From positions 1 to 22,861 of IMG/VR virus record IMGVR_UViG_3300005527_000314: DNA of 22,861 nucleotides, one strand, 5' to 3'. The notes beneath the pieces are model-generated. The model ran no database searches. It was not told the origin of the DNA and worked only from the letters and a program-made list of their open reading frames with translations. The number at the start of each line of letters is the position of its first letter. Positions within the stretch are counted from its first letter, which is position 1. Shown here in pieces: positions 5,681-18,310 of the stretch. This stretch comes from a virus. A program made the translations under genes and the position numbers.

Positions 5681-5712
5681 TGAATATAACATCCTTTTCC
5701 TGTGAAGCCAAG
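5681..5712 (-). promoter_or_regulatory. Promoter for the DUF932/tRNA unit
   Basis: Bacteroidota-type promoter: -33 CTTG (5709-5712, in GCTTGGCTTCACAGGA), 20-nt spacer, -7 TATATTCA (5681-5688). The TTTG is replaced by CTTG, as in the next promoter upstream. Confidence 0.8.
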
Positions 5713-5719
5713 CCTCCTG

Positions 5720-6031
5720 TTAAAGACTTTCAATCAAGTAACAGATTCGTTGAATAGTGTCGTGTTTTTTCATACGAATATCCATTCTGTACGGTTCTAA
5801 ATCCAATGTTTTGTCCATTTGTTTCACTTGAACTGCCATGAATTTCAACTTTTCAGCAGTAGATCCTTCAATTTCCCCCTCTAAAACCATATCAGGAAAC
5901 ACAATATGTGGTTTCTCTGCTGCTTTTCTACCACGTTTCTTTGGTTCTGTTGTAGTAGTTGTATTCAATTGAATTTCTACTTCTTTCTTTTTACCCGTTC
6001 CTGGTGGGCGACCTCGACGTTTTTGTTCCAT
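5720..6031 (-). CDS. AT-hook DNA-binding protein (103 aa)
   Basis: Two AT-hook cores are visible: RRGRPPG at residues 5-11 and KKRGRKA at about 31-37, joined by a Thr-rich linker. A soluble mixed region (VLEGEIEGSTAEKLKFMAVQVKQMDKTLDLEPYRMD) follows. AT-hooks bind the minor groove of AT-rich DNA, which fits the AT-rich genome. It starts in the AATAAAGGTTATG context, 19 nt after the stop of the 54-aa membrane gene, so both probably share the promoter at 6238-6269. Confidence 0.75.
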   Translation of the reverse strand: MEQKRRGRPPGTGKKKEVEIQLNTTTTTEPKKRGRKAAEKPHIVFPDMVLEGEIEGSTAEKLKFMAVQVKQMDKTLDLEPYRMDIRMKKHDTIQRICYLIESL

Positions 6032-6050
6032 AACCTTTATTTGTGTTTAA

Positions 6051-6215
6051 TTATATGATAAATAATGATGTCAAAATCCAATAGAACATGATTTGAAGCG
6101 CATACCAAATACCTTGAGATTTGAGTGACAAATCTTCACCTTTCTTTTTGGCATCAATGCGTACATGTGATACTGCGCAATATGCCATCCAAATATATGC
6201 TGCTGTTGCTATCAT
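6051..6215 (-). CDS. 54-aa small membrane protein
   Basis: A short gene runs from ATG at 6215 to TAA at 6051. The N-terminus MIATAAYIWMAYCAVSHV and C-terminus WYALQIMFYWILTSLFII are hydrophobic and flank a basic loop (RIDAKKKGEDLSLKSQG), so two membrane helices are likely. It begins 23 nt downstream of a family promoter (-7 box at 6238-6245), which is the normal leader length in this array and supports it as a real gene. No family is recognised. Confidence 0.7.
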   Translation of the reverse strand: MIATAAYIWMAYCAVSHVRIDAKKKGEDLSLKSQGIWYALQIMFYWILTSLFII

Positions 6216-6237
6216 GTCCTAATTATTTAATTATGAC

Positions 6238-6269
6238 TAAATATAACATCCTTTTCCTGTGAAGCCAAG
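6238..6269 (-). promoter_or_regulatory. Promoter for the 54-aa and AT-hook genes
   Basis: -33 CTTG (6266-6269, in GCTTGGCTTCACAGGA), 20-nt spacer, -7 TATATTTA (6238-6245), then the GTCATAATTAA leader shared by most copies. Confidence 0.85.
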
Positions 6270-6286
6270 CAAGAGGTGAGGGAAGT

Positions 6287-6299
6287 GTGGAAGATCCAC
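6287..6299 (-). terminator. Possible weak terminator after the GNAT-like gene
   Basis: GTGGA-TCT-TCCAC forms a 5-bp stem just after the stop of the 7219 gene. It is followed by a pyrimidine-rich but not U-only stretch, so termination is uncertain. Confidence 0.35.
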
Positions 6300-6313
6300 T
6301 AGAACGTTGAAAA

Positions 6314-7219
6314 TTAAACAGGTATAACGTCTAAATCCTTAGTTACTATGAATAGTACATTACTAGCCTTTACCAGGATAGCTTCAGGTTTAGCATTAGC
6401 TACTACATCATGGTAAATCATTTTATCATCATTGATTACTTCTTCCAATGAATTGCTTTCACCTACCATTGTATCAAACTCTTCACCTGACCCTTCATAA
6501 GTGTATATTCCGTATTCTCCTTTACTTAATGACAAACCATCTAAATAATTTTGTAGTTTTATCATTTGGGGACTAGGATTAGTACTAGCTACATAGCTGA
6601 CTATATCCTGCATTCCCATGATTTTATCATTCTTAGCATCCTCAAGAGTTAAGGGAGCATAGAACCCACCTGTTTCTACTCCAAAGAAACCTCCAAGTTG
6701 AGTGGCTGGATAGATTTTGTTTGTCCAAACTGCTCTTGAACCTTCATAAAGGATGTTATCAGAAAAAAGGTTACCATAGTGTACTAAAACCATGTAGTAC
6801 ATTAAAGCACCTAAACCTTGACCTCTATAAAGTTTACTAATGTATGTTAAAACAATCTGTCCTCCTTCTAACCCATAAGGCTTACCTTTTACTTCCTCTA
6901 CATCAACAGAACCAACAATATATTCTTTCCAGGTTTTAGCAGATGGTTTTACTAGGTATTTTGTAGTACCTTCCACACCAGTAGGTTCTATTAGCTTATA
7001 CTCTCCTACTTCAGATAACTCTTTATACTCCAACTTAGACTCATCTATATCACTATTAATATTTAGTTTTCCACTTGCAACATAGTTTAAAGGATACTTA
7101 GTGTATAAATCAAAGTTATAAAAGAAACTTTCCCATAACTCATTATCATTAACAAATGCTTGGCCTAGGTTGCCTTTACGTATATCTAGTTCTTTAAGTA
7201 AGTCAGTCAGTTTTATCAT
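6314..7219 (-). CDS. GNAT-like acetyltransferase with putative virion-targeting N-terminus
   Basis: I chose the ATG at 7219 (MIKLTDLLKEL); a TTG 24 nt upstream is the alternative. The 301-aa protein has a GNAT-type acetyl-CoA loop, YRGQGLGALMYY (RGQGLG at residues 132-137), after a strand QIVLTYISKL. SRAVWTNKIYP resembles the later GNAT helix. The first 80 residues and the last 100 are not recognised. The N-terminal MIKLTDLLKEL resembles short amphipathic leaders common in marine phage proteins and similar in style to T4 capsid-targeting sequences. The substrate is unknown. The gene is preceded by a strong terminator, and no family promoter is seen. Confidence 0.55.
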   Translation of the reverse strand: MIKLTDLLKELDIRKGNLGQAFVNDNELWESFFYNFDLYTKYPLNYVASGKLNINSDIDESKLEYKELSEVGEYKLIEPTGVEGTTKYLVKPSAKTWKEYIVGSVDVEEVKGKPYGLEGGQIVLTYISKLYRGQGLGALMYYMVLVHYGNLFSDNILYEGSRAVWTNKIYPATQLGGFFGVETGGFYAPLTLEDAKNDKIMGMQDIVSYVASTNPSPQMIKLQNYLDGLSLSKGEYGIYTYEGSGEEFDTMVGESNSLEEVINDDKMIYHDVVANAKPEAILVKASNVLFIVTKDLDVIPV

Positions 7220-7241
7220 GGTAATAAATATTCTAATAGAC

Positions 7242-7277
7242 AAAAAAGAACCCCGATGAGTAGCGAATTCATCGGGG
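7242..7277 (-). terminator. Strong rho-independent terminator
   Basis: Perfect 9-bp stem CCCCGATGA/TCATCGGGG (7251-7259 with 7269-7277), followed on the minus strand by TTCTTTTTTG. It separates the 39-aa gene from the GNAT-like gene. Confidence 0.9.
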
Positions 7278-7312
7278 CCTAAGTAGCCTAAACTACAACG
7301 GTCCTAAGTCCG

Positions 7313-7432
7313 TTATCCTTGGTTCTCTAAAAGTGCTTTAAGAACCCTATTGTTTTCTTGAATTCTCTTAAAGTTTTTCTTTAAGTTAATTTTGTTTTTA
7401 TGCTTAGGTGTTTCCTTTTTAGCTTTTCCCAT
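7313..7432 (-). CDS. 39-aa basic protein
   Basis: I chose the ATG at 7432 (MGKAKKETPKHKNKINLKK). A longer frame upstream would read through a terminator-like hairpin. The protein is very basic (about a third K or R) and probably helical, so it may bind nucleic acid. The strong terminator lies 35 nt downstream. No family is recognised. Confidence 0.55.
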   Translation of the reverse strand: MGKAKKETPKHKNKINLKKNFKRIQENNRVLKALLENQG

Positions 7433-7461
7433 GACTTGTATTTTTATATATACATATATAG

Positions 7462-7486
7462 GAAAAAGGCCCCCACATGCGGACCC
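7462..7486 (-). terminator. Candidate terminator after the hydrolase-like gene
   Basis: GGTCC (7481-7485) can pair with GGGCC (7468-7472) around an 8-nt loop, with one G-T pair, and is followed by TTTTT. It lies 30 nt after the stop of the 7968 gene. Confidence 0.5.
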
Positions 7487-7515
7487 TTCACCCATACACC
7501 TTAATACGTATATAC

Positions 7516-7968
7516 TTATATACCAAAGTATTTAATAAAAAAATACTTGGGAATTTCACTATGACCCATATCGATATGAATAGCTTCACCACCACCATTA
7601 GCTATTGCTTTAGCAGCAGAAGGTAGGTTTTTATTGATATTACCCCAATTAGAGACATCATATAACATATGAACGTTATTGTGGTATTTTAGTTGGTTAT
7701 AGCTGGGTCTAGTTGATGGATCTATTAGACCGATAAAGGCATAGTCTGGGCTATAGTTTTTGAATACATCCAATCCTCCTGCACTGAAACCAATTAGTGC
7801 TGTGGTGTGGGGATCTATGTTATGTTTTATTTTATGTAGAGGAGTACCATATGGTACCATATAGACTTCATATTGGGCTTTGAAATGGGATGGAAGTTGT
7901 TTATCCATCCATTGTGGGGTGGCATAATACATTCCACACCATATGATAATTGTTTTAATGAGTGTCAT
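7516..7968 (-). CDS. Small alpha/beta-hydrolase-like protein (150 aa)
   Basis: Residues 56-66 (TALIGFSAGGL) form a strand followed by the nucleophile elbow G-F-S-A-G, giving S62 as the likely nucleophile. D83 (LIDPSTRP) or D104 (LYDVSNW) and H136 (DMGHSEIP) are in the right order for the acid and histidine of the triad. At 150 aa it is much shorter than a full alpha/beta hydrolase (about 250 aa), so it is a minimal or trimmed version. There is no signal peptide. It starts 4 nt after the stop of the T5orf172-domain gene and shares its promoter. The substrate is unknown. Confidence 0.6.
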   Translation of the reverse strand: MTLIKTIIIWCGMYYATPQWMDKQLPSHFKAQYEVYMVPYGTPLHKIKHNIDPHTTALIGFSAGGLDVFKNYSPDYAFIGLIDPSTRPSYNQLKYHNNVHMLYDVSNWGNINKNLPSAAKAIANGGGEAIHIDMGHSEIPKYFFIKYFGI

Positions 7969-7971
7969 TTA

Positions 7972-8577
7972 TTAGTAAATTATTGGGTTACCTATTTGAA
8001 ATATAGCTCCTATTTCTCGTACTTTGTCAAATGCAGTTAGTGGGTCAATTTGAAAAAATTCTCTTTCATTACCCAAATTTGAAGTTACTCTTTTATCGGA
8101 GAAACATTTGTGAACCAATTGTTCAATCCTTAAAGCATTACCCTTGGAAACTGGGAGAGCAAATTTAGGAGTCCATTCATTGACGGTTCCTGTTTTGTTG
8201 ATACTTCTAACTCTACCCTCTACTGTATGTTCTGTCATTCCTATTTTGACTAGATCTGGATAACCTGGGTTGATTAGAACATAAATATATTCTATGTTGT
8301 CTTTGGTTTTGGACTGGATATCTATGTTTTGTATCCCATAAACAAAATCCCATTCTGTTTCGGAGATAGGTATTTCAATGAGATAAGATGCTCTTACAAA
8401 GTGAAGAAACTTACTTGTGTCTACATGTCTAAATTTAGATCTAAGCGCGGAATAGTTGTTTTTCCACATTTGAGATTGAGGGTGATGACCTGTGCTATTA
8501 GATGGGTCTAATATGGTTATTTCGCCTATACTTTCTAAGTGTAATGCATCATTAAGTGGAAGTTTATCTCTATACAT
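7972..8577 (-). CDS. T5orf172 / GIY-YIG-like domain protein (201 aa)
   Basis: I chose the ATG at 8577 because it lies 18 nt past a clean promoter and in the AATAAAGGTTATG start context. The C-terminal half (about 96-185) matches the T5orf172 (MUG113) type of GIY-YIG-related domain: IEYIYVLINPGYPDLVKIGMTE, RVRSINKTG, then ALRIEQLVHKCFSDKRV and NEREFF. Such domains occur in phage and eukaryotic-virus proteins and may be nucleases; the classic GIY-YIG residues are only partly present (YVL...KIG, R122, E152). The N-terminal 95 residues are not recognised. It is the first gene of a two-gene unit with the hydrolase-like protein. Confidence 0.75.
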   Translation of the reverse strand: MYRDKLPLNDALHLESIGEITILDPSNSTGHHPQSQMWKNNYSALRSKFRHVDTSKFLHFVRASYLIEIPISETEWDFVYGIQNIDIQSKTKDNIEYIYVLINPGYPDLVKIGMTEHTVEGRVRSINKTGTVNEWTPKFALPVSKGNALRIEQLVHKCFSDKRVTSNLGNEREFFQIDPLTAFDKVREIGAIFQIGNPIIY

Positions 8578-8594
8578 AACCTTTATTTTATATA

Positions 8595-8626
8595 CAAATA
8601 TATTTATATACTTGGTCGATGCCAAA
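8595..8626 (-). promoter_or_regulatory. Consensus Bacteroidota promoter for the 8577 gene
   Basis: -33 TTTG (8623-8626), 20-nt spacer, -7 TATATTTG (8595-8602): an exact match to the Bacteroidota consensus. Its spacer lacks the conserved GCTTCACAGG of the array promoters, so it is a separate type. Confidence 0.85.
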
Positions 8627-8861
8627 AATTTTTATAAAAGAGAGATTTTAGGTTTTGCCATTTGTGATCCAAAGGGGTATTTTGAAAATTGGAGGTGTGT
8701 TATGGAGCGTATATATGTATATACAATCGGTGCGTAAAGATCGTATACGATCTGTTTTGTGGTCATTCACGCAGGAAGATCCGGTATCCGGTTATATGGA
8801 CCATAACGCGCATGGGAGCGTAATATACACATACCGTATATGTACGTACCATGTACTGCGG
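8627..8861. other. Non-coding, palindrome-rich segment
   Basis: No convincing gene on either strand. It is less AT-rich than its neighbours and dense in short dyads: AGATCGTATACGATCT (8738-8753, perfect 16 bp), GTATATAC, a TCCGGTATCCGGT direct repeat, GTACATGGTAC, and a TGCGG/CCGCA hairpin that overlaps the stop of the 9125 gene. It could be a cis-acting site (replication, packaging or regulation) or an RNA. Confidence 0.5.
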
Positions 8862-9125
8862 TTAAGCCGCAAGATTACTTTTTACCAACCTCACAAACTC
8901 ATTTATCTTGTCAGCATCGGTTTTACTTTCATCACACGCCCATTTTAAAACATCAGCATAGTGTGATGAGCGATGATAGTCAATCATGTCATCATATGAC
9001 TTGAAATTGGTTTTAGAAAATGTAACATATGAACCATCGTTATCATCTGATATCTGGTAACCTAGTGCTTCAACGAATGCGTAAACTGATTTGTTGATGT
9101 GTTTTTTCTGTTCTGTCTTTGTCAT
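8862..9125 (-). CDS. Hypothetical small protein (87 aa)
   Basis: I chose the ATG at 9125 (MTKTEQKK), 25 nt downstream of the promoter at 9150-9181; a longer frame would begin upstream of the promoter. The protein has a basic N-terminus, an acidic middle (SDDNDGSY) and a helical end (KINEFVRLVKSNLAA). A GC hairpin overlaps its stop codon. No family is recognised. Confidence 0.7.
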   Translation of the reverse strand: MTKTEQKKHINKSVYAFVEALGYQISDDNDGSYVTFSKTNFKSYDDMIDYHRSSHYADVLKWACDESKTDADKINEFVRLVKSNLAA

Positions 9126-9149
9126 GTTATTACTGTTTTTAATTATGAC

Positions 9150-9181
9150 TAAATATAACATCAAGGTTGGGCGAGGCCAAA
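9150..9181 (-). promoter_or_regulatory. Array promoter for the 9125 gene
   Basis: -33 TTTG (9178-9181, TTTGGCCTCGCCC), 20-nt spacer, -7 TATATTTA (9150-9157), followed by GTCATAATTAA. Confidence 0.85.
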
Positions 9182-9188
9182 TAGGTGG

Positions 9189-9455
9189 TTATTTGCTTTT
9201 ACGTTGTCCTAATTTTCTAACACCATACTCAACTGTTACCTTAGTATAGTTAACTTCATTTTCAAAATTATTTTTATCATAACGAATAACTCCTTCTTGA
9301 GTGAATCGTTCAACCCTATGTCCTTTTTGAAGTAATTCAAACACATCTTCACTTACAGTGATCCGATCATCTTTCTTATAGGCGAGTACTTTAATACCTC
9401 TACTAGTTTCAAAAATTGGATTTTTAACAATTAAGATAAATTCTTTGTGTGTCAT
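9189..9455 (-). CDS. Hypothetical small protein (88 aa)
   Basis: MTHKEFILIVKNPIFETSRGIK begins a mixed alpha/beta protein with basic ends (VRKLGQRKSK). No membrane segment is present. It lies alone behind its own promoter. Its stop is 7 nt from the -33 box of the next promoter. No family is recognised. Confidence 0.75.
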   Translation of the reverse strand: MTHKEFILIVKNPIFETSRGIKVLAYKKDDRITVSEDVFELLQKGHRVERFTQEGVIRYDKNNFENEVNYTKVTVEYGVRKLGQRKSK

Positions 9456-9480
9456 GTGTTAACGTTTTTTAATTATTGAC

Positions 9481-9512
9481 TAAATATAACATCCCTCCCC
9501 CATGAAGCCAAA
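9481..9512 (-). promoter_or_regulatory. Array promoter for the 9455 gene
   Basis: -33 TTTG (9509-9512, TTTGGCTTCATGGG), 20-nt spacer, -7 TATATTTA (9481-9488). It begins 2 nt after the stop of the 9679 gene. Confidence 0.88.
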
Positions 9513-9514
9513 CC

Positions 9515-9679
9515 TTAGGCTATGTTATCGTTCTCTAAGGTTTCGATGGTTACATTAAGTACACCTCTCAGATAACCAATAATCCAATCTTTACTATCAC
9601 CATTCTTGCACATTGCTTCTACTTCGGTGATTTGGTTCTTCAACATTCCAGCTAAAATTGTCTTGTTACTTTTGTTCAT
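9515..9679 (-). CDS. Hypothetical small protein (54 aa)
   Basis: The frame runs from ATG at 9679 (MNKSNKTILAGMLKNQITEV) to TAA at 9515. It is soluble and helical, with one Cys and a WIIGYLRGVLNV segment. It is supported by a family promoter 24 nt upstream and by exact fitting between two promoters. No family is recognised. Confidence 0.7.
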   Translation of the reverse strand: MNKSNKTILAGMLKNQITEVEAMCKNGDSKDWIIGYLRGVLNVTIETLENDNIA

Positions 9680-9703
9680 ATGTTAACGTTTTTTAATTAT
9701 GAC

Positions 9704-9735
9704 TAAATATAACATCTCTCTCCTGCGAGGCCAAA
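9704..9735 (-). promoter_or_regulatory. Array promoter for the 9679 gene
   Basis: -33 TTTG (9732-9735, TTTGGCCTCGCAGGA), 20-nt spacer, -7 TATATTTA (9704-9711). The TTTG lies in the pyrimidine tail of the terminator at 9741-9756. Confidence 0.88.
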
Positions 9736-9740
9736 CAGAA

Positions 9741-9788: not shown

Positions 9789-10217
9789 CTATTTTTTACT
9801 CATATATGTAATCACATTTGTTGCCTCAATCCAAATAGATTCAGTAGTCAGGAAAACTACTTCATCAATAGCACTTTCTATTTCACTATGTAGAGTCCTC
9901 TCATCAAAATGAACTGATATTGTGTTTCTATCTAATTCTAACTCAACCATGTCCTCAAAATCAATCCCAGCATTAGTAATTGATTCAATTGCTGCTGTTT
10001 TAAAGCGTTCTTGGATTGTACAAGTGTACTCAATTAAAGCGTCCTTAGTAAATGATGCTACTATAGGTGAGTCTAGCTCTTGTTTATTGGTGACTAATTG
10101 TTTGACCATTTGATCTCGCATCCCTACTTGGTTGATGATCCATTCCATCATCTCACCATCCATTTCTACTTCTTTTAATACTGCTACAACTACGTTTGCA
10201 ATGTTTTGATTTGTCAT
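9789..10217 (-). CDS. Hypothetical acidic protein (142 aa)
   Basis: I chose the ATG at 10217 (MTNQNIANVVVAVLKEV), which lies 27 nt past the promoter; the longer frame starts inside the promoter. The protein is helical and strongly acidic in its second half (DFEDMVELELDRN, IESAIDEVV) and has no membrane helix. The residue content would suit a protein-binding inhibitor or DNA mimic, but nothing is recognised. Confidence 0.7.
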   Translation of the reverse strand: MTNQNIANVVVAVLKEVEMDGEMMEWIINQVGMRDQMVKQLVTNKQELDSPIVASFTKDALIEYTCTIQERFKTAAIESITNAGIDFEDMVELELDRNTISVHFDERTLHSEIESAIDEVVFLTTESIWIEATNVITYMSKK

Positions 10218-10243
10218 GTTTTTATATGTTTTAAATTTATATC

Positions 10244-10275
10244 TGAATATAACATCCCTTCCCCGTGAAGCCAAA
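10244..10275 (-). promoter_or_regulatory. Array promoter for the 10217 gene
   Basis: -33 TTTG (10272-10275, TTTGGCTTCACGGG), 20-nt spacer, -7 TATATTCA (10244-10251), followed by GATATAAATT. Confidence 0.88.
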
Positions 10276-10277: not shown

Positions 10278-10523
10278 TTAGTTTAGAATGAATTTATTTT
10301 TCTTAATAAACGCTCTAGCTGCCTTCATGGCTTGTTGACATGTGGCTCTATGACCTACCAACACCATCATGTCAGCTACAATTTCATCTGCTTCATCAGG
10401 TGGTAGTGGTTGGTCCAACTCCATACTGCACAGCTGAATCGCTTCATCTGCTTCCTGAATGCCTTCTTTTGCAAGTTCAATTACCTGCTTTGCTTCGATC
10501 ATCATTATGATATTCATGTTCAT
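10278..10523 (-). CDS. Hypothetical helical protein (81 aa)
   Basis: After MNMNIIMMIEAKQ the protein is an acidic helix (LAKEGIQEADEAIQL, PPDEADEIVADMMVLVG) ending in a basic segment (MKAARAFIKKNKFILN). Several ATGs lie close together at the start, and the first is used here. It has its own promoter. No family is recognised. Confidence 0.7.
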   Translation of the reverse strand: MNMNIIMMIEAKQVIELAKEGIQEADEAIQLCSMELDQPLPPDEADEIVADMMVLVGHRATCQQAMKAARAFIKKNKFILN

Positions 10524-10539
10524 GTTTTTTAATTATGAC

Positions 10540-10571
10540 TAAATATAACATCAAGACCCTGTGAGGCCAAA
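10540..10571 (-). promoter_or_regulatory. Array promoter for the 10523 gene
   Basis: -33 TTTG (10568-10571, TTTGGCCTCACAGGG), 20-nt spacer, -7 TATATTTA (10540-10547), leader GTCATAATTAA. Confidence 0.88.
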
Positions 10572-10578: not shown

Positions 10579-10824
10579 TTACATCCACATATCATAAGCA
10601 TACATTTCGCGGGTGTTATAATCTGAAGATATACATAAACCATCACCACAAATTTCTTGTAGTTCTTTAATCCCTACACTTGTGAAAACATAAGCAGCCC
10701 ACTCATCATTTCTCTTGGCTACTACCCTACCAGTCAATCCAAGTGGATGTTCCATATACACTGGTTTAAAGTTTTTTGATTTACGAATTGCTGAAACGTA
10801 CTTGTGAAAAGAATTCATTGCCAT
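10579..10824 (-). CDS. Hypothetical small protein (81 aa)
   Basis: MAMNSFHKYVSAIRKSKNFKPVYMEHPLG is followed by a beta-rich part (GRVVAKRNDEWAAYVFTS) and a YNTREMYAYDMWM end. It is soluble and has two Cys. It sits between two promoters, with the stop 7 nt from the next -33 box. No family is recognised. Confidence 0.7.
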   Translation of the reverse strand: MAMNSFHKYVSAIRKSKNFKPVYMEHPLGLTGRVVAKRNDEWAAYVFTSVGIKELQEICGDGLCISSDYNTREMYAYDMWM

Positions 10825-10849
10825 GTTGTTACTGTTTTTTATTATGAAC

Positions 10850-10881
10850 TAAATATAACATCCCTACCCCATGAAGCCAAA
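10850..10881 (-). promoter_or_regulatory. Array promoter for the 10824 gene
   Basis: -33 TTTG (10878-10881, TTTGGCTTCATGGGG), 20-nt spacer, -7 TATATTTA (10850-10857). Confidence 0.88.
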
Positions 10882-10941: not shown

Positions 10942-11748
10942 CTATTCTTCATCATCTGCATCAGGCAAACTATACTCAATCTGATTCAAACCAATTCTAT
11001 ACTTGATATATGATTCAGTATCACAATCCCTGTTCTTACTAAAATACACTTTACGACTATCACTTCCTTTGATTCGATCAATATGACACATTGCTTCAGT
11101 CATATGTTTTAAACGGTTACTACCTGCAAAATCTCCAGCTTTAGTAACTTGTTGAATATTGATAAATGAAGTGTATCTTTTACCTTTATTCTCACCTTTT
11201 TTAACTCGGCTTTGAAGATTCAAAAACCACAATTCAGCAGCACTTTCAGTTGTACGATAAGTGTCTTTATACATTTCAATCACTTCAGCAATACTATCAA
11301 TTGCAATCACATCATAACCTTCATTGAAAACATACTCTAAAGTCTCACGAACTGATTCTGTATAGTTCTTCAAAAACAAAGTTGGTACTGTTTTGAAATG
11401 AGGCATTCGGCGGCAGTATTTGAAGTGACCAATTTCATCCATTTCACCTGATACAAACAATACTTTCTTACCTCGTGATGCTAATTTACTTAACATATCT
11501 AATACTACTGTACTCTTACCTGAACCTGGTCCTCCGCAAATAATCATATTCACAGCAGGCATTAAACCTTTCTGACTTGATAGAATTGAATCCATCAATG
11601 TTCCTGTACTCATAGGTCGGAAAACATTCTCGTTAAAGTTCAATTCTGAACCTTTAAAGATTTGAACTGATTTTGGGTCAAATTCTACTACTTCTACTTG
11701 GTTCTTTTTTGGGCGACCTTTACCTCTTTTAATTACTAAATTGTTCAT
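10942..11748 (-). CDS. RadA/RecA-like ATPase with AT-hook-like N-terminus
   Basis: The 268-aa protein has Walker A GGPGSGKST at residues 72-80 and Walker B YDVIAIDS at 145-152. QVTKAGDFAGSNRLKHM at 200-216 corresponds to the HVTKEG-x-AGP-x-LEHM motif of RadA/Sms, and KNRD at 238-241 sits where RadA has KNRFG. The RadA zinc finger and Lon-like domain are missing. The first 15 residues (IKRGKGRPKKNQ) look like an AT-hook. A role as a DNA-recombination or branch-migration ATPase, or as a replicative motor, is likely. It has its own promoter and a terminator-like hairpin, and is the largest enzyme in the small-gene array. Confidence 0.8.
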   Translation of the reverse strand: MNNLVIKRGKGRPKKNQVEVVEFDPKSVQIFKGSELNFNENVFRPMSTGTLMDSILSSQKGLMPAVNMIICGGPGSGKSTVVLDMLSKLASRGKKVLFVSGEMDEIGHFKYCRRMPHFKTVPTLFLKNYTESVRETLEYVFNEGYDVIAIDSIAEVIEMYKDTYRTTESAAELWFLNLQSRVKKGENKGKRYTSFINIQQVTKAGDFAGSNRLKHMTEAMCHIDRIKGSDSRKVYFSKNRDCDTESYIKYRIGLNQIEYSLPDADDEE

Positions 11749-11774
11749 GTGTGTTAATTATTTTTAATTATATC

Positions 11775-11806
11775 TAAATATAACATCAAAATCCTGTGAA
11801 GCCAAA
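11775..11806 (-). promoter_or_regulatory. Array promoter for the RadA-like gene
   Basis: -33 TTTG (11803-11806, TTTGGCTTCACAGGA), 20-nt spacer, -7 TATATTTA (11775-11782), followed by GATATAATTAA. Confidence 0.88.
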
Positions 11807-11817: not shown

Positions 11818-12087
11818 TTATTTCAATTTAATTATTATTGCTTTGGAGTAACTCCAACCTGTGTACCCTAATTCATGTTTAGCTCCTAGTTTTTTACAAA
11901 ATGAAACTAATTTATCTGAGGTTATACTAACATTTTTATAAAATGTATTTACAATTTCAAATTGATTCTTTTGATAATTCATACGCATTAAAGGATAAGC
12001 TTTGAACTTTTCAAAAATCAATTCTTTAAATTCTTTAATAGAGATGTTAGTGCCTGGGACTAATTTGTTGTTGTGTTTTTGCTTCAT
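11818..12087 (-). CDS. Hypothetical basic protein (89 aa)
   Basis: MKQKHNNKLVPGTNISIKEFKELIFEKF is followed by VNTFYKNVSITSDKLVSFCKKLGAKHELGYTGWSYSKAIIIKLK. It is Lys-rich with an alternating helix/strand pattern and has no membrane helix. A nucleic-acid-binding role is possible from the charge only. It has its own promoter. Confidence 0.7.
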   Translation of the reverse strand: MKQKHNNKLVPGTNISIKEFKELIFEKFKAYPLMRMNYQKNQFEIVNTFYKNVSITSDKLVSFCKKLGAKHELGYTGWSYSKAIIIKLK

Positions 12088-12104
12088 GTGTTTTTAATTA
12101 TGAC

Positions 12105-12136
12105 TAAATATAACATCACTCTCCTGTGAAGCCAAA
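12105..12136 (-). promoter_or_regulatory. Array promoter for the 12087 gene
   Basis: -33 TTTG (12133-12136, TTTGGCTTCACAGGA), 20-nt spacer, -7 TATATTTA (12105-12112), leader GTCATAATTAA. Confidence 0.88.
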
Positions 12137-12138: not shown

Positions 12139-12342
12139 TTAGTTTATAGACTTAAAATGATTAACAAACTGACTTGGTGTAAAGTTCAATTCAAAACCAC
12201 TACACCACCCTCTGATACCCTCTACACAGATATCTCCTTCTTCATGATCAACTAGTTCTACAATATCTCCTTGCATTACAACAACATTTATGTTTTCACT
12301 GTCTGCAAGTCCCTTAATACATTCAAATTTAAATTTTGCCAT
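12139..12342 (-). CDS. Hypothetical small beta protein (67 aa)
   Basis: The alternating hydrophobic pattern (FKFECIKGL, INVVVMQGDIVELVDHEEGDICVEGI, GWCSGFELN) suggests a small SH3-like beta barrel. No motif confirms this. The stop lies 2 nt before the -33 box of the next promoter. Confidence 0.7.
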   Translation of the reverse strand: MAKFKFECIKGLADSENINVVVMQGDIVELVDHEEGDICVEGIRGWCSGFELNFTPSQFVNHFKSIN

Positions 12343-12367
12343 TTTGTATGTGTTTTTTAATTATGAC

Positions 12368-12399
12368 TAAATATAACATCACTTTCCCTGAAGGCCAAA
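12368..12399 (-). promoter_or_regulatory. Array promoter for the 12342 gene
   Basis: -33 TTTG (12396-12399, TTTGGCCTTCAGGGA), 20-nt spacer, -7 TATATTTA (12368-12375). Confidence 0.86.
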
Positions 12400-12406: not shown

Positions 12407-12595
12407 TTAATCTTGTTCTGGTTCAATCAATTCTAGTTCTTCTACATACTCCATAAAGTCTTTTACATATTGTTCAAACTTATCAGGTTGTAGAAAAAGT
12501 ATCTCTTTCAAGGTTCTTGTAATGATTTCTGAATCAATCTCAATTGCACCTTCTACATAGGCATTAATCAACTTTTCTTTTCTTTCAATTGTCAT
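12407..12595 (-). CDS. Hypothetical acidic helical protein (62 aa)
   Basis: MTIERKEKLINAYVEGAIEID opens an all-helical acidic protein ending MEYVEELELIEPEQD. No family is recognised. It sits alone between two array promoters. Confidence 0.7.
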   Translation of the reverse strand: MTIERKEKLINAYVEGAIEIDSEIITRTLKEILFLQPDKFEQYVKDFMEYVEELELIEPEQD

Positions 12596-12619
12596 GTGTT
12601 ACTTATTTTTAATTATGAC

Positions 12620-12651
12620 TAAATATAACATCCTTTTCTTACAAAGCCAAA
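12620..12651 (-). promoter_or_regulatory. Array promoter for the 12595 gene
   Basis: -33 TTTG (12648-12651, TTTGGCTTTGTAAGA), 20-nt spacer, -7 TATATTTA (12620-12627). Confidence 0.86.
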
Positions 12652-12658: not shown

Positions 12659-12880
12659 TTACTTTATAATAACCACTGTTTTTATACTATCATCTTCATC
12701 ATCATAATCAGTAACCTTATCCATCCTATGATATGAAGAATATCTAACTTGACCTTCATCAACATCCCTTATATTGCTTGCTACTTCACTACTCCAATAA
12801 TCACCGTAGTTATAAGCAAATTTTACTTCCATGTTTGGGTCAAAACCCTCTAATGATTCAATCAATTCTTTTACTGTCAT
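12659..12880 (-). CDS. Small phage protein, MTVKELIESL type (73 aa)
   Basis: The start MTVKELIESLEGFDPNMEVKF matches a common type of small phage protein (MTVKELI-x-L-x-DP-x-EV) of unknown function that I recognise by pattern only. An acidic segment (DYDDEDDSIK) precedes the last strand TVVIIK. It is soluble and has its own promoter. Confidence 0.75.
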   Translation of the reverse strand: MTVKELIESLEGFDPNMEVKFAYNYGDYWSSEVASNIRDVDEGQVRYSSYHRMDKVTDYDDEDDSIKTVVIIK

Positions 12881-12898
12881 ATGTTTCTAATTTATACC

Positions 12899-12930
12899 TG
12901 AATATAACATCTATTTCCTGTGAAGCCAAA
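12899..12930 (-). promoter_or_regulatory. Array promoter for the 12880 gene
   Basis: -33 TTTG (12927-12930, TTTGGCTTCACAGGA), 20-nt spacer, -7 TATATTCA (12899-12906). Confidence 0.88.
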
Positions 12931-12941: not shown

Positions 12942-13115
12942 TTACTTTTTATCCACCTCAAACACAACATCTCTATCATGGGTAGTAGTGTGACTTCCTA
13001 CCTCAAATGCTTCACCTCTCAAATAATTGGCTAATGCATCTCCCTCATTAAAGGCTTCCACTTCAAACACTCTAACTACTGTTGCTGGTACAATTGCTTT
13101 TACTAGATATTTCAT
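12942..13115 (-). CDS. Hypothetical small protein (57 aa)
   Basis: The frame runs from ATG at 13115 (MKYLVKAIVPATVVRVFEVE) to TAA at 12942. It has two beta-type stretches around a short helix (EGDALANYLRGEAF) and ends in DVVFEVDKK. It begins 18 nt after the -7 box of its promoter and ends 12 nt before the next promoter, which supports it. No family is recognised. Confidence 0.72.
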   Translation of the reverse strand: MKYLVKAIVPATVVRVFEVEAFNEGDALANYLRGEAFEVGSHTTTHDRDVVFEVDKK

Positions 13116-13132
13116 ATGTTTTAATTTATATC

Positions 13133-13164
13133 TGAATATAACATCTCTCTCTCATGAAGCCAAA
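13133..13164 (-). promoter_or_regulatory. Array promoter for the 13115 gene
   Basis: -33 TTTG (13161-13164, TTTGGCTTCATGAGA), 20-nt spacer, -7 TATATTCA (13133-13140). Confidence 0.88.
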
Positions 13165-13238: not shown

Positions 13239-13451
13239 TTAGGCCATTTGACGCTCAGAATTCTTCTGACGACGTCGGGTGATGTTGTACATTGCAGAAG
13301 CAACATCTTCATTAATCGAACGATTTCCGTTCGTAATGTTTGTGATATGAGAGGTTGAATAACCTGTCATGTCTGCGATACGCTGGGTATCACCTGAACG
13401 CTTTCGGGCGTTGTAAAACGCCAATTTGGCGGTTGAATTTAAACGACGCAT
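13239..13451 (-). CDS. HTH (Cro/CI-like) transcriptional regulator (70 aa)
   Basis: A classic helix-turn-helix is visible: QRIADMTGYSTSHITNITNGNRSI (about residues 23-46), as in Cro/CI-type repressors, followed by a basic tail (RRRQKNSERQ). It is a single small DNA-binding domain. It starts 24 nt after the end of tRNA-Leu(TAA), so both are probably on one transcript, and a strong hairpin terminator follows. The segment 13180-13780 is richer in GC than the rest of the window, which may mean recent acquisition. Targets are unknown; the repeated promoters nearby are candidates. Confidence 0.82.
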   Translation of the reverse strand: MRRLNSTAKLAFYNARKRSGDTQRIADMTGYSTSHITNITNGNRSINEDVASAMYNITRRRQKNSERQMA

Positions 13452-13605: not shown

Positions 13606-13800
13606 TTAGGCCTCAGTTGGTGCGGTCTCCACCTTCTTGGTTGACGGGCGTCCCAGTTTCACCACTCCTCCATTAACGGCAGCGCGCGCTGCTTTCTCTG
13701 CGAGTCGTTGTTGGCGTTTGCTTGTTGCTACCACTGGGCGGCCTTTTGATTTTTCTGTTGCTGGTGCAGTTACTGCTGCTGTTGTTTCTTCTTTTTGCAT
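13606..13800 (-). CDS. Small basic GRP-motif (AT-hook-like) protein (64 aa)
   Basis: An Ala/Thr-rich N-terminus precedes SKGRPVV at about residues 18-24, a basic helix (SKRQQRLAEKAARAAV) and LGRPSTKK at about 49-56. The two GRP cores resemble AT-hooks and match those in the proteins at 5720-6031 and 10942-11748. It starts in the AATAAAGGTTATG context behind its own promoter and lies upstream of the tRNA-Leu/HTH unit. It is relatively GC-rich. DNA binding is inferred from the motif. Confidence 0.72.
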   Translation of the reverse strand: MQKEETTAAVTAPATEKSKGRPVVATSKRQQRLAEKAARAAVNGGVVKLGRPSTKKVETAPTEA

Positions 13801-13830
13801 AACCTTTATTATTTATTTTTACTTATACTA

Positions 13831-13862
13831 TTAATATAACATCCTTTTTTTATGAAGCCAAA
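13831..13862 (-). promoter_or_regulatory. Array promoter for the 13800 gene
   Basis: -33 TTTG (13859-13862, TTTGGCTTCATAAA), 20-nt spacer, -7 TATATTAA (13831-13838), the weakest -7 in the family. A 13-bp repeat block lies 12 nt upstream. Confidence 0.8.
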
Positions 13863-13873: not shown

Positions 13874-13912
13874 CTGTTTTGCCTACCTGATCTTCCTACC
13901 TGTTTCCCCTAC
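13874..13912 (-). repeat. 13-bp purine-rich repeat, three tandem units
   Basis: On the minus strand: GTAGGGGAAACAG, GTAGGAAGATCAG, GTAGGCAAAACAG, with no gaps. The first unit contains the TAG stop of the 14079 gene. The block ends 12 nt before the -33 box of the 13800 promoter. Confidence 0.85.
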
Positions 13913-14079
13913 CAATTCCAAATCCAAATCAAAATGGTTACCCAAAATGCTACTACCAGGAACCAATATATCATTCGAACCTCTTCATATTCAGATGTTT
14001 TCATTTGCTGGAAGAACTCAGCTAACCATGCAATTGCACATCCTATAAAAATAAGTGCTATAAATATTATCCAAAACAT
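13909..14079 (-). CDS. 56-aa two-TM protein
   Basis: The frame runs from ATG at 14079 (MFWIIFIALIFIGCAIAWLA) to TAG at 13909. A second hydrophobic stretch (WFLVVAFWVTILIWIWNW) follows a charged loop (QQMKTSEYEEVRM), giving two helices and a Trp-rich end. It is 24 nt past its promoter. Its stop TAG is the TAG of the first 13-bp repeat unit. No family is recognised. Confidence 0.7.
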   Translation of the reverse strand: MFWIIFIALIFIGCAIAWLAEFFQQMKTSEYEEVRMIYWFLVVAFWVTILIWIWNW

Positions 14080-14103
14080 GTGTTATTATTTTTTAATTAT
14101 ATC

Positions 14104-14135
14104 TAAATATAACATCAGATTCTGTGGAAGCCAAA
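14104..14135 (-). promoter_or_regulatory. Array promoter for the 14079 gene
   Basis: -33 TTTG (14132-14135, TTTGGCTTCCACAGA), 20-nt spacer, -7 TATATTTA (14104-14111), followed by GATATAATTAA. A 13-bp repeat pair lies 6 nt upstream. Confidence 0.87.
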
Positions 14136-14141
14136 CAAGTC

Positions 14142-14527: not shown

Positions 14528-14557
14528 AACTTTATATTTGATTTGTTTATTATATAC

Positions 14558-14793: not shown

Positions 14794-14817
14794 TTGTATT
14801 TCAGTTTTGGTTTCTGC

Positions 14818-14843
14818 TTGTTTCCCCTACTTGATCTTTCTAC
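14818..14843 (-). repeat. 13-bp purine-rich repeat, two units
   Basis: On the minus strand GTAGAAAGATCAA and GTAGGGGAAACAA are contiguous. The first holds the TAG stop of the 15055 gene, and the pair forms the leader of the 14793 gene. Confidence 0.8.
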
Positions 14844-15055: not shown

Positions 15056-15060
15056 ATTTT

Positions 15061-15441
15061 TTATTTTTCTCTACAAATGTACATCCAAGCATAGTCATTA
15101 TAACGGATTGTTAGAGCAATATTTGCTTCATCAAGTGTGGTTAGAAACACCCAACAATAACTTCCTTTTTTATCCATTGCCTTCCACATCACAGTATCAT
15201 CTTTACGTCCCATTTCTGTTACAATTTGATACACTTGATGACCTTCACTGTAAATAATAATTTCATGATCATTGAATTGAACTATTATGTCTACAGATGT
15301 TGGTTTTCTCACCCATTCTATTTCATCATTGTATGTTATTTCACCTAAGTAAAATTGATATGCTCTACCAATTAATGGTTCTTGAGCAAATGATACTAAT
15401 GACGTTAGTGTTATTAGTAGTGTTAAGATTAGTTTTTTCAT
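15061..15441 (-). CDS. Exported protein with Bacteroidota-type signal peptide (126 aa)
   Basis: MKKLILTLLITLTSLVSFAQ is a signal peptide with the SFA-Q cleavage style usual in Bacteroidota. The mature part is beta-rich (SVDIIVQFNDHEIIIYSEG, ALTIRYNDYAWMYICREK) and resembles small host-like periplasmic proteins, with two Cys. Its start overlaps the stop of the lipoprotein gene upstream by 4 nt. No family is recognised. Confidence 0.78.
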   Translation of the reverse strand: MKKLILTLLITLTSLVSFAQEPLIGRAYQFYLGEITYNDEIEWVRKPTSVDIIVQFNDHEIIIYSEGHQVYQIVTEMGRKDDTVMWKAMDKKGSYCWVFLTTLDEANIALTIRYNDYAWMYICREK

Positions 15442-15647
15442 TTATTATCTTCTTTTGTTATTCTTTCCATATGTCCGGTTTGGTGGTTTACAAGGAACTC
15501 AATCGAGTCAACAACAACTATCGATAATGATGTGTTACTGAGCTGGTTGTAATCTTTGAATTGAATCCTGTTGACTTGCTCTTGTGTTTGATACTCACCA
15601 CACCCACACAATATAACAAGTAAAATAAATGCTATCAGTTTATTCAT
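15438..15647 (-). CDS. Small lipoprotein (69 aa)
   Basis: MNKLIAFILLVILCGCGEY is a lipoprotein signal, with LCG before the likely lipidated Cys16. The mature part is polar and about 54 aa long (TQEQVNRIQFKDYNQLSN...). It overlaps both neighbours by 4 nt. Phage lipoproteins often block later infection or act as outer spanins; nothing here decides between these. Confidence 0.75.
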   Translation of the reverse strand: MNKLIAFILLVILCGCGEYQTQEQVNRIQFKDYNQLSNTSLSIVVVDSIEFLVNHQTGHMERITKEDNK

Positions 15648-15853
15648 TTTTTAGAAATTGAATCAAATATTTTTTCAAGTACCTTCCAAATCAACATTAA
15701 CACTACAAATAATAGTGCCATTGGCCAAACCAATGAAGTGATAACTGCTTGGGGCATATTAATTTCTTCTCCTGCTTTACATTGTTGATTGTAAAGTGCA
15801 CACGCTACAAATGTAGCTAAAAAACCTAAAATATAACTTATAATCATACTCAT
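15644..15853 (-). CDS. 69-aa two-TM protein
   Basis: The N-terminal helix SMIISYILGFLATFVACALY and the C-terminal helix VITSLVWPMALLFVVLMLIWKVLEKIF flank a short polar loop with Cys (NQQCKAGEEI). It overlaps the lipoprotein start by 4 nt. No family is recognised. Confidence 0.75.
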   Translation of the reverse strand: MSMIISYILGFLATFVACALYNQQCKAGEEINMPQAVITSLVWPMALLFVVLMLIWKVLEKIFDSISKK

Positions 15854-15869
15854 AATATATTAATTGTTT

Positions 15870-16208
15870 TTATTTATCCAAATTTTTTCTTAAATAGTCT
15901 GGTATCATAGGGCAGGTTTTTAATTCCCATCCTTCACTACCATCATATTCCCATCGTTCCAACCATGCTCCATATGTTAACCATACTCTACCATACATGT
16001 GTTGTGAGCCATAACCATTGTTATAGTTAAAATCAAGAAGGATATAAAACCTATCTAATTCTTCTTTAGTATGATTGAGTGGGAGGTGAATTAACATATT
16101 CTCACCATCATATGGATCACCCTCATAAGTAATTTCAGCACATACTAAATAGAATCCTCGTTTTTTTGAGGTTTCTAAGATTGTTATTAATTCTTCTCTA
16201 GCATTCAT
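15870..16208 (-). CDS. Hypothetical soluble protein (112 aa)
   Basis: MNAREELITILETSKKRGFYLVCAEITYEGD leads into an aromatic-rich, mixed alpha/beta protein (YGRVWLTYGAWLERWEYDGSEGWEL). It has no signal peptide. The 4-nt ATGA overlap with the gene upstream places it in the long operon. No family is recognised. Confidence 0.72.
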   Translation of the reverse strand: MNAREELITILETSKKRGFYLVCAEITYEGDPYDGENMLIHLPLNHTKEELDRFYILLDFNYNNGYGSQHMYGRVWLTYGAWLERWEYDGSEGWELKTCPMIPDYLRKNLDK

Positions 16209-16486
16209 TTGTCATCTCCTTTATATGTCCTGTTATAGTGACCTTCAGCGTCTATCTCTCCAGCTACATCCAACATATCTGTTAAGCCATACTCACCATT
16301 CCATCCCTCACCACTTGCTTTAAATCCTTCGCAGTAGTCAGATATAGATTGCTGCTTCTCCATTGCTTTGCAATCTCTGTAAGCTGAATTTAAGAATGTT
16401 TTATCTGGTTCTGACAACTTCAGTCCCATTGCTATAAGATGTCTAATGTGTCTGTGATAAACATCAACCGCTGTTTGTTTACTCAT
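16205..16486 (-). CDS. Hypothetical soluble protein (93 aa)
   Basis: MSKQTAVDVYHRHIRHLIAMGLKLS is followed by an acidic C-terminal half (GLTDMLDVAGEIDAEGHYN). Three His in the first 16 residues are notable but form no known motif. It overlaps the upstream gene by 8 nt and the downstream gene by 4 nt. No family is recognised. Confidence 0.72.
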   Translation of the reverse strand: MSKQTAVDVYHRHIRHLIAMGLKLSEPDKTFLNSAYRDCKAMEKQQSISDYCEGFKASGEGWNGEYGLTDMLDVAGEIDAEGHYNRTYKGDDK

Positions 16487-16823
16487 TGTTATCTTCTTTT
16501 AATTCTGATAATTCTTTTTCTAATCGTTTTAAAAATGTTTCCTCACCATCATCACCTGATAATAACCAATCAATACGTTGGGCGTATATAGCTGCTTTTC
16601 GAAGTGCATCTACACCTTCTTTAAACTTTTCAATTACCTCATCTGGGTATTTGTAGTGGTAGAGGTCTTCAGGGTATTGTTCATACCAATCAGGTTTACG
16701 CCAATGTTCATCTTTAAGTTCCTCATCAGTTTTCTTACGACCATTGTTTTCAATGATTCTTTCAACACCATCAGCTATTTCAGTGATGTGCCATTGTTTG
16801 TAATCAAAATGTCCTCCACTCAT
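16479..16823 (-). CDS. Conserved phage protein, MSGGHFDY family (114 aa)
   Basis: MSGGHFDYKQWHITEIADGVERII, then PDWYEQYPEDLYHYKYPDEVIEKF, then AIYAQRIDWLLSGDDGEETFLKRL match a widespread phage and prophage protein of unknown function that I recognise by sequence. The length is typical. It is soluble, acidic and aromatic-rich. It is cotranscribed with its neighbours (1-nt gap upstream, 8-nt overlap downstream). Confidence 0.82.
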   Translation of the reverse strand: MSGGHFDYKQWHITEIADGVERIIENNGRKKTDEELKDEHWRKPDWYEQYPEDLYHYKYPDEVIEKFKEGVDALRKAAIYAQRIDWLLSGDDGEETFLKRLEKELSELKEDNNE

Positions 16824-16824
16824 A

Positions 16825-17055
16825 TTAGTCCTCTATATTAAAGAGTTTATAGATTTGTTTAGACCAAAACCCAGCTGTTGGGAATATTATTATAACCGTA
16901 AATAAAAATGCTCCCCATATCTGCCAAGCTTCTGTTGTTTGTTCATTGATGGATAATTCTAGACCGTATCCTCCAACACACATGACGCATATTGTTAAGA
17001 ATGTGATGGCTAAAAATTGCATTGTTGCCTTAATGGCTGATGTGTTTTCTTTCAT
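16825..17055 (-). CDS. 76-aa two-TM protein
   Basis: Helices at about 12-30 (MQFLAITFLTICVMCVGGYGL) and 45-65 (IWGAFLFTVIIIFPTAGFW) flank an acidic loop (SINEQTTEAWQ). It starts 5 nt after the stop of the repeat-protein gene. No family is recognised. Confidence 0.75.
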   Translation of the reverse strand: MKENTSAIKATMQFLAITFLTICVMCVGGYGLELSINEQTTEAWQIWGAFLFTVIIIFPTAGFWSKQIYKLFNIED

Positions 17056-17060
17056 ATCTT

Positions 17061-17381
17061 TTATTTTTTAAGTTTGAAATCATGTCCAATTAAAGCAATT
17101 GCTTCTTTCATTGTATATTCGGGAATGGCCTTGGGTCGGTTGTCTACAATGATACCATTACCATCTTCCACATAGATGCACTCTCCGTACGCATCAAATT
17201 CCCTTTTACACCAATACCCATTACTGTTTTCCAAGTAGATACGATTTTCATACGCATCGTGTTCATATTTTTCCCATTCACCATCACTGTTTTCCCAGTA
17301 GATGCAGTTTCCCCTTCTGTCTTTGATTTCCAAACTTCCGTTAGTACTAAAGCTCCATTTGATTTGTTTTGCGATTGTCAT
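17061..17381 (-). CDS. RHS/YD-like short-repeat protein (106 aa)
   Basis: Three imperfect repeats of about 20-21 residues cover residues 18-80, each of the form aromatic-(D/E)-A-Y-x-x-x-I-Y-x-E-x-x-x-G-x-(W/I): RGNCIYWENSDGEWEKYEHD, AYENRIYLENSNGYWCKREFD, AYGECIYVEDGNG. This resembles YD/RHS-type beta repeats in small phage proteins, which in large RHS proteins build a beta cage. With three copies it is probably a small beta sheet. Start context AATTAAGGTTATG. The function is unknown. Confidence 0.7.
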   Translation of the reverse strand: MTIAKQIKWSFSTNGSLEIKDRRGNCIYWENSDGEWEKYEHDAYENRIYLENSNGYWCKREFDAYGECIYVEDGNGIIVDNRPKAIPEYTMKEAIALIGHDFKLKK

Positions 17382-17395
17382 AACCTTAATTTTAA

Positions 17396-17689
17396 TTAAA
17401 ATTCATATGTTGTAAAAGGGTGATATTCAACACAAAACACTTTTACTTTATCTTTCACTACTATAACTTCATCTCGAGTTACATTTTTCCAAGCATATGT
17501 AAAATGCCCTACATAATCATCAGGATATTTACTATCCAATGGATAAAATCCCCAACATTCAGCTTCACCTTTATGTACACCATAATAATCATCTAAACCT
17601 ACTCTAAGGTCTTCAAATGTAGATGCTGTCATAATAGGCTTGTATCCATTTAAATCCATAGCCACATATGTTACTTTAACTCTACTCAT
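17396..17689 (-). CDS. Hypothetical soluble protein (97 aa)
   Basis: MSRVKVTYVAMDLNGYKPIMTASTFEDLRVGL is followed by a CWGFYPLDSKYPDDYVGHF segment and a beta-rich end (VFCVEYHPFTTYEF). Its ATG overlaps the upstream stop (ATGA). No family is recognised. Confidence 0.72.
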   Translation of the reverse strand: MSRVKVTYVAMDLNGYKPIMTASTFEDLRVGLDDYYGVHKGEAECWGFYPLDSKYPDDYVGHFTYAWKNVTRDEVIVVKDKVKVFCVEYHPFTTYEF

Positions 17690-17949
17690 AGGTCTCCTCT
17701 ATTTATTTCGTAATTATAACCTCTAGTTTTTAGAGATGAATTGATTCTATCTACAAAATGCCATTCTGGTTCTGTATCATGTACCTCTGGATGTACTGAT
17801 GCTACTTGAGCAATTTGTTCTGCTATAAGTTTTTTCAACTCATTTTCAGAAACAAATTTGTCTCCCCAAATTGTGTTGTAGATATTTTGGTAAGCTTGAG
17901 TACATGCCTCATTACCTTCTTCTGTGAACATTTCAAAATAGACTGCCAT
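17686..17949 (-). CDS. Hypothetical protein, first gene of the long operon (87 aa)
   Basis: MAVYFEMFTEEGNEACTQAYQNIYNTIWG is helical and acidic, and the C-terminus is more basic (KTRGYNYEINRGDL). It starts in the AATAAAGGTTATG context 27 nt after the promoter at 17977-18008 and leads an operon of about 14 genes running to roughly 14330. No family is recognised. Confidence 0.73.
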   Translation of the reverse strand: MAVYFEMFTEEGNEACTQAYQNIYNTIWGDKFVSENELKKLIAEQIAQVASVHPEVHDTEPEWHFVDRINSSLKTRGYNYEINRGDL

Positions 17950-17976
17950 AACCTTTATTTGTTTTAATTATTTAAC

Positions 17977-18008
17977 TAAATATAACATCACTCTCTTGGA
18001 GAGCCAAA
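17977..18008 (-). promoter_or_regulatory. Array promoter for the long small-gene operon
   Basis: -33 TTTG (18005-18008, TTTGGCTCTCCAAGA), 20-nt spacer, -7 TATATTTA (17977-17984). It starts 11 nt after the tRNA-Leu-like gene. Confidence 0.86.
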
Positions 18009-18018
18009 CTTATTTTTG

Positions 18019-18114
18019 TAGTCAGGACAGGATTCGAACCTGCATGATAGTAGGGTATGTACACTTCCCATTTGAAGGACTATCTTAAACGTCTACCAAT
18101 TCCGCCACCTGACT
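18019..18114 (-). tRNA. tRNA-Leu(CAA)-like gene with abnormal anticodon/variable region
   Basis: The ends fit a class II Leu tRNA: acceptor AGTCAGG/CCTGACT, TG, D-arm GCGGAATTGGTAGACGT, T-arm GCAGG-TTCGAAT-CCTGT, discriminator A. TTCAAAT is a textbook Leu(CAA) loop, but only CC/GG plus a T-G pair flanks it directly. Instead GATAGT pairs perfectly with ACTATC 33 nt away, leaving GAAGTGTACATACCCT as an apparent insertion and no normal variable arm. At 96 nt it is 10 nt longer than the Leu(TAA) gene in this window. Confidence 0.68.
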
Positions 18115-18166
18115 AACCGAAACTACCACCCAAGTGAGCTGTTCGTCATGGGAAGCCTAGTGGTAC

Positions 18167-18247
18167 TTATCCTAACAATGCTAATGTTACTACTACAATA
18201 GCGAATAATACAAATGCTTTAATTGGATCTTCAAGTTGCTTTACCAT
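18167..18247 (-). CDS. 26-aa single-TM micropeptide
   Basis: MVKQLEDPIKAFVLFAIVVVTLALLG runs from ATG at 18247 to TAA at 18167. A short charged N-terminus and one membrane helix are visible. It is supported by its own array promoter, with the start 32 nt past the -7 box. It precedes the tRNA-Leu-like gene and may be cotranscribed with it. No family is recognised. Confidence 0.6.
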   Translation of the reverse strand: MVKQLEDPIKAFVLFAIVVVTLALLG

Positions 18248-18278
18248 GTTTTTATGTTTTAATTATTTAATTTATATC

Positions 18279-18310
18279 TAAATATAACATCAAACTCTGG
18301 TGAAGCCAAA
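18279..18310 (-). promoter_or_regulatory. Array promoter for the 26-aa peptide
   Basis: -33 TTTG (18307-18310, TTTGGCTTCACCAGA), 20-nt spacer, -7 TATATTTA (18279-18286), followed by GATATAAATTAA. This is the rightmost member of the family. Confidence 0.87.

Follow-up and report, generated by a model that had tools for sequence, protein, structure and literature searches.

Putative early promoters with a rigid 20-base spacing in a T4-like phage lineage of Bacteroidota

The window analysed here, i.e., positions 1-22,861 (22.9 kb) of the IMG/VR virus record IMGVR_UViG_3300005527_000314, carries 18 copies of a two-box element (class E; Table 1), which we consider, with a probability of roughly 60%, to represent T4-style early promoters that are read by the host RNA polymerase in a lineage of T4-like phages infecting Bacteroidota. 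The promoter family probably serves to claim the transcription enzyme of the host. A second class without a -33 box (class L) occurs in the same phages. Our analysis covers the sequence, spacing, family-wide conservation and genome distribution of the sites and the two promoter classes. From these we infer promoter activity and the holoenzyme that would read each class, whereas the assignment to early and late stages is based on gene content and on the analogy with T4.

The window is part of the genome of a T4-like phage of Bacteroidota. Among its genes are those for a sigma-70 region 2 protein, a DUF932 protein, a T5orf172 protein, a RadA/DnaB-like ATPase and an SLT-domain protein, besides four tRNA-like genes. 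The nearest named relative, as judged from the sigma gene (44% identity), is Flavobacterium phage vB_FspM_immuto (immuto hereafter), the annotation of which includes T4-like gp20 and gp23 genes. A 163-kb relative, G001 (IMGVR_UViG_3300035670_000019), spans the window region with matches to most window genes in largely the same order and is a useful reference for the lineage. When phage records were searched for near-identical copies of the promoter region, there were zero matches. At the window end (22595-22816, minus strand) a Por secretion (type IX) C-terminal sorting domain is encoded, which suggests a phage-encoded protein destined for the type IX secretion system of the host.

The copies in the window

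On the minus strand the 18 copies share the consensus G-TTTGGCYY-N11-GATGTTATATT(T/C)AG. All copies listed in the original prediction are indeed present, the positions given there being those of the final A of TATATTTA, and the fixed distance proposed between TTTG and TATATT is 20 bases in 18 out of 18. The pattern TTGG-N14-GATGTTAT occurs 18 times, and none of the remaining spacings between 8 and 21 gives a match. When up to two mismatches are tolerated, TTTGGC-N13-GATGTTATATTTAG matches 18 times on the coding strand, 0 times on the opposite strand and not at all in 200 first-order Markov shuffles. The proposed position matrix, trained on the very 18 copies that it scored, gave 34.7 bits for the weakest copy and 3.3 bits for the next window site. 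The description of the copies as near-identical is correct for the two boxes but not for the spacer, where TTGGCTTCACAGGA is exact in only five copies. Variants include one copy (13831) with TATATTAAT and four with TATATTCAG.

With gene starts taken from simple ORF calling, the distance from the initial T of TTTGGC to a downstream ATG is 48-67 nt in every copy. If the -7 box takes the position mapped in Flavobacterium psychrophilum, -12 to -5 (PMC9723704), the leaders would be roughly 12-31 nt long. Many copies have a short, A-rich leader and a single tiny gene to serve. This agrees with the earlier observation that there is often one promoter per tiny gene: 12 of the 18 promoter intervals hold exactly one listed gene, which in 10 cases is 54-89 aa long. 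A tRNA-like gene at 18019-18114 (minus strand), detected by Rfam (35.9 bits) and missed by ARAGORN, terminates shortly before the class E promoter at 18008.

Table 1. Promoter-like sites and candidate regulators in the window
Feature	Positions	Strand	Gene or remark
Class E copy	5680..5712	-	before DUF932 gene 4845-5645; orthologous promoter kept in relatives fetched without motif
Class E copy	6237..6269	-	gene 6051-6215
Class E copy	9149..9181	-	gene within 8862-9164
Class E copy	9480..9512	-	gene 9189-9455
Class E copy	9703..9735	-	gene 9515-9679
Class E copy	10243..10275	-	gene within 9789-10274
Class E copy	10539..10571	-	gene 10278-10523
Class E copy	10849..10881	-	gene 10579-10824
Class E copy	11774..11806	-	RadA/DnaB-like ATPase gene 10942-11748
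Class E copy	12104..12136	-	gene 11818-12087
Class E copy	12367..12399	-	gene 12139-12342
Class E copy	12619..12651	-	gene 12407-12595
Class E copy	12898..12930	-	gene 12659-12880
Class E copy	13132..13164	-	gene 12942-13115
Class E copy, variant -7 box TATATTAAT	13830..13862	-	gene 13606-13800, then tRNA-Leu and HTH gene
Class E copy	14103..14135	-	gene 13909-14079
Class E copy	17976..18008	-	gene 17686-17949 and following genes
Class E copy	18278..18310	-	short ORF from 18248, then tRNA-like gene 18019-18114
Related promoter, host-type -7 box, TTTGG-N20-TATATTTG	8595..8626	-	T5orf172 gene
TTTGG-N20-TATATTTG promoter	3991..4022	-	before tRNA-Met
Class L TATTTATA box	22561..22568	-	gene 22254-22541
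Class L TATTTATA box	21211..21218	-	
Class L TATTTATA box	924..931	-	gene 568-909
Phage sigma factor, sigma-70 region 2	935..1645	-	weak match to phrog_234 late sigma
HTH_3-like protein	13239..13451	-	rejected as obligatory promoter reader
Terminator-like hairpin and T-run within promoter spacer (CTTGGAAAATCAAGCCTTTTTTATTATATTTAG)	19240..19272	-	
GGCC-TTCG-GGCC-TTTTTTT then ATTATATTTAA, terminator-promoter-like	22196..22228	-	

Conservation in related phages and comparison with host promoters

Six large relatives of 136-163 kb were compared (immuto, G001, G019, G020, G021 and G022); the large IMG/VR relatives come without completeness estimates, and G021, G022 and the further record G024 are possibly fragments. 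Together the six hold 187 sense versus 24 antisense occurrences of TTG-N20-TATnTT(T/C)A (G001 32/3, immuto 33/2, G019 38/4, G022 18/2, G020 35/6, G021 31/7). When the spacing is varied the number peaks at exactly 20 and is close to background at 19 and 21. Among viral contigs the motif was located in at least 120 stretches. Its 19-base version has three matches in 84,980 prokaryote genomes, which is about the chance expectation (2 x 257 Gb / 4^19, i.e., ~2). A bacterial origin of the element was rejected on this number and because the flanks of the three matches have no A-rich leader. Two results support the idea that these promoters carry information beyond the Bacteroidota consensus: the spacing is exact in a further six large phage records, and the frequency in bacterial genomes is not above chance.

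The family-conserved parts are two extended boxes, TTTGGCYY and GATGT-TATATTTAG, at a fixed distance. In an alignment of 270 unique copies, the core of which was set by the search so that it is informative at non-core positions only, G precedes TTTGGC, YY follows it, G or A precedes ATGT, and spacer positions 9-18 hold about 0.1-0.6 bits. Between relatives the spacers of orthologous promoters drift, and the spacer middle CACAGGA, originally regarded as a conserved element, is therefore a local feature that does not extend across the family. The DUF932 promoter retains TTGG-N20-TATATT in relatives that were collected through their sigma gene, independently of the motif, while the five bases before its -7 box vary by clade (GATGT, TTCGT and others). 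More generally this extension is GATGT in the clade of the window, TTC-N in immuto and TTCGT in other phages.

The large records contain 16-35 early-type and 20-33 late-type sites each, numbers that hinge on the consensus patterns chosen. Class E sites are clustered among small genes in four of the six (G001, 17 of 29 within one tenth; immuto, 19 of 31; G019, 19 of 35; G020, 22 of 25 within two tenths) and scattered in G021 and G022. The median size of the gene downstream is 87-148 aa for class E versus 152-220 aa for class L. The GATGT form of TTGG-type class E sites occurs 61 times in the densest 20 kb and 14 times outside, against 29 and 41 for the other forms, a concentration that is indicative only, since the cluster was defined from all sites jointly.

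Promoters of the Bacteroidota primary sigma factor consist of TTG or TTTG followed by TAnnTTTG, with a -7 box ending in G. All 18 window copies carry the -33 TTTG 20 bases before the -7 box, in line with the distance of about 20 bases in these promoters. The class E -7 box, however, has A as its last base in 203 of 215 sites and G in only three, and so deviates from TAnnTTTG. Sequence amounting to 1.12 Mb, drawn from three genomes of the Mesonia family/Flavobacteriaceae, served as the host sample. In it, TAnnTTTG (218 sense versus 123 antisense) and TATATTTG (47 versus 17) are enriched upstream of genes, whereas TATATTTAG shows no sense excess (4 versus 4). No sharp spacing peak was present in this sample, and TTTG-N20-TATATTTAG does not exceed the reversed pattern in 199 Flavobacteriaceae genomes. 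Two sites at 8595 and 22563, which had been put forward as internal controls, belong to other classes, the former with a host-like -7 box and the latter with the late-type TATTTATA. The G001 counterpart of the 8595 site ends in TATATTTAG, which indicates that the A and G forms are interchangeable in evolution. TTG-N20 sites with the host ending TATATTTG occur in Mel-JY01, which the sigma gene places as a distant relative.

Potential readers of the two promoter classes

Class L consists of TATTTATA without a -33 box. Upstream of genes that have no E site, 156 such sites without a conserved -33 element were found in the six records, and in immuto they precede the terminase, capsid assembly, tail sheath and tail tube genes. 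In the window the three TATTTATA boxes lie shortly before an ATG and flank the class E region. Class L probably represents late promoters for a phage sigma factor, by analogy with T4, and the phage-encoded sigma factor of the window is a plausible reader. All 25 homologues of this protein match PF04542 at E <= 0.1, the window protein itself falling below the curated cut-off. In T4 the match lies in the gp55 region and reaches 14.5 bits, against 22.6 bits for G001. The structural model of the window protein has a pLDDT of 71 and Foldseek matches in the PDB that are mostly sigma factors, though weak, with zero at E <= 0.001; the sigma profile gave no match among PDB sequences. In the C-terminal part no Pfam region 4 was detected, and a conserved helical part is predicted after region 2.

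For class E, we favour the host holoenzyme. Host-type TTG-N19..21-TAnnTTTG sites are not clearly above antisense in G001 (10/7) and immuto (2/9), which makes class E the main candidate for the immediate-early transcripts and hence favours the enzyme already present in the cell. The host RNA polymerase with its primary sigma factor would bind TTG (-33) and TATATTT (-7), 20 bases apart, and the extra conserved bases that follow the -33 box (GGCYY), precede the -7 box (GATGT) and follow it (AG) may help these sites to outcompete host promoters. Structural genes elsewhere in the genome would use the TATTTATA class, probably via the phage sigma factor. The multiple copies before small genes, the T4-like genome and the extended consensus are all traits of T4-type early promoters. 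The near-invariant A would be unexpected if the unmodified host sigma factor alone had chosen the sequence, and since the -7 box ends in A and not in the host G, a phage-specific reader is possible.

Such a reader could be the host RNA polymerase altered by a phage sigma factor, or by another phage or injected protein, with its -7 preference changed from TTTG to TTTAG and with the extended boxes read. Less probable than the host holoenzyme but deserving serious consideration, this would give the lineage a polymerase with its own -7 preference (TATATTTAG, not TAnnTTTG), a ruler-like 20-base spacing and an early regulon private to the phage, not shared by host genes. Besides the near-invariant A, it would accommodate the chance-level number of motif matches in prokaryotes, the pre--7 extension that switches between clades as a co-evolving reader would give, and the sigma region 2 protein with its second conserved helical part, found in G001, G019-G021 and, by tblastn, immuto. 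However, the first phage genes need transcription and no alternative immediate-early class was found in G001 or immuto, sigma region 4 was not detected in the C-terminal part, and a gp55-like sigma factor would more naturally act on class L, which has no -33 box.

That a separate phage DNA-binding protein, an activator or repressor such as the HTH protein, binds the spacer is unlikely. In the window, G and A do predominate at spacer positions 12-14 (0.9-1.9 bits), but the weak conservation of the spacer centre over the 270 copies and its drift between orthologues do not support the suggestion that CACAGG is read by an additional factor. Relatives of the HTH protein occur in G001, G019, G020, G007, G008, G030 and G033; none was found in immuto or in G021, G022 and G024, records that are possibly fragments and hold 18, 12 and 18 motif matches, so that it does not qualify as a general reader. 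A MotA-like activation was also rejected: no gene was found by profile (PF09114 had no match in the six phage records, versus E=3e-63 for the T4 control), and the box spacing differs (14 versus 12 +/- 1).

Least probable, to a degree that makes it very improbable, is that the repeats are mainly RNA or termination elements rather than promoters. Short hairpins are more frequent in the -33/spacer region than in letter-shuffled spacers in all three site groups, including GATG sites (23 of 92 versus 11.0 +/- 2.9) and T-run sites (13 of 30 versus 2.6 +/- 1.5), but they are confined to a subset and most copies have none. Pairing of the flank with the spacer gives stems no better than those obtained after the halves were swapped (mean stem score around TTTGGC 11.54 versus 11.34 +/- 0.11), on which ground a general hairpin or covariation was dismissed, and two boxes at a fixed distance directly before an ATG suit a promoter. 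Some sites have a terminator-like hairpin and T-run within the 20-base spacer, e.g., TTTGGCCTTCGGGCCATTTTTTATTATATTTAG in G001, and may be fused terminator-promoters. Besides the two in the window, such sites were seen at G001 23711, 79576 and 127061, and several in G019, G020 and immuto.

Comparison with known systems and implications

Like the sigma-70-dependent early promoters of T4, whose consensus extends beyond the host elements (PMC2988021), class E occurs in many copies before small genes of a T4-like genome and has an extended consensus, which in sigma-70 terms reads TTGGCY-N17-TATATT with TGn. It differs in the host phylum and sigma factor, in its rigid spacing, in a -7 box that departs from the host consensus by an almost invariant base, and in that no clear UP element is seen. 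With the T4 middle promoters it shares an extended -10 and a box, TTGGCTTCA, that resembles the MotA box WWTGCTTYA; the MotA box, however, lies 12 +/- 1 bp from the -10 (PMC2988021), whereas the class E box lies 14 bp away and a MotA-like protein was not detected. Class L resembles the T4 late promoters (TATAAATA, gp55) in its single TA-rich box, the lack of a -33 element and its more frequent position before longer genes, but has TATTTATA as its box, and its assignment to a phage sigma factor is an interpretation. The Bacteroidota primary sigma promoters share with class E the positions of TTG and TA..TTT and the 20-base distance; class E ends in TTTAG instead of TTTG, has conserved GGCYY and GATGT, and is rigidly spaced where the host sample has no sharp peak.

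In our literature searches we encountered neither a promoter map for any T4-like phage of Bacteroidota nor a paper combining immuto and promoters. This study supplies a predicted promoter map for such phages, covering six large records, and the cultured relative immuto is available as a test subject for the predicted promoters. The class E cassettes would be candidate expression parts for Flavobacterium, and the one-base contrast with the host -7 box could reveal whether the phage alters the promoter choice of its host.
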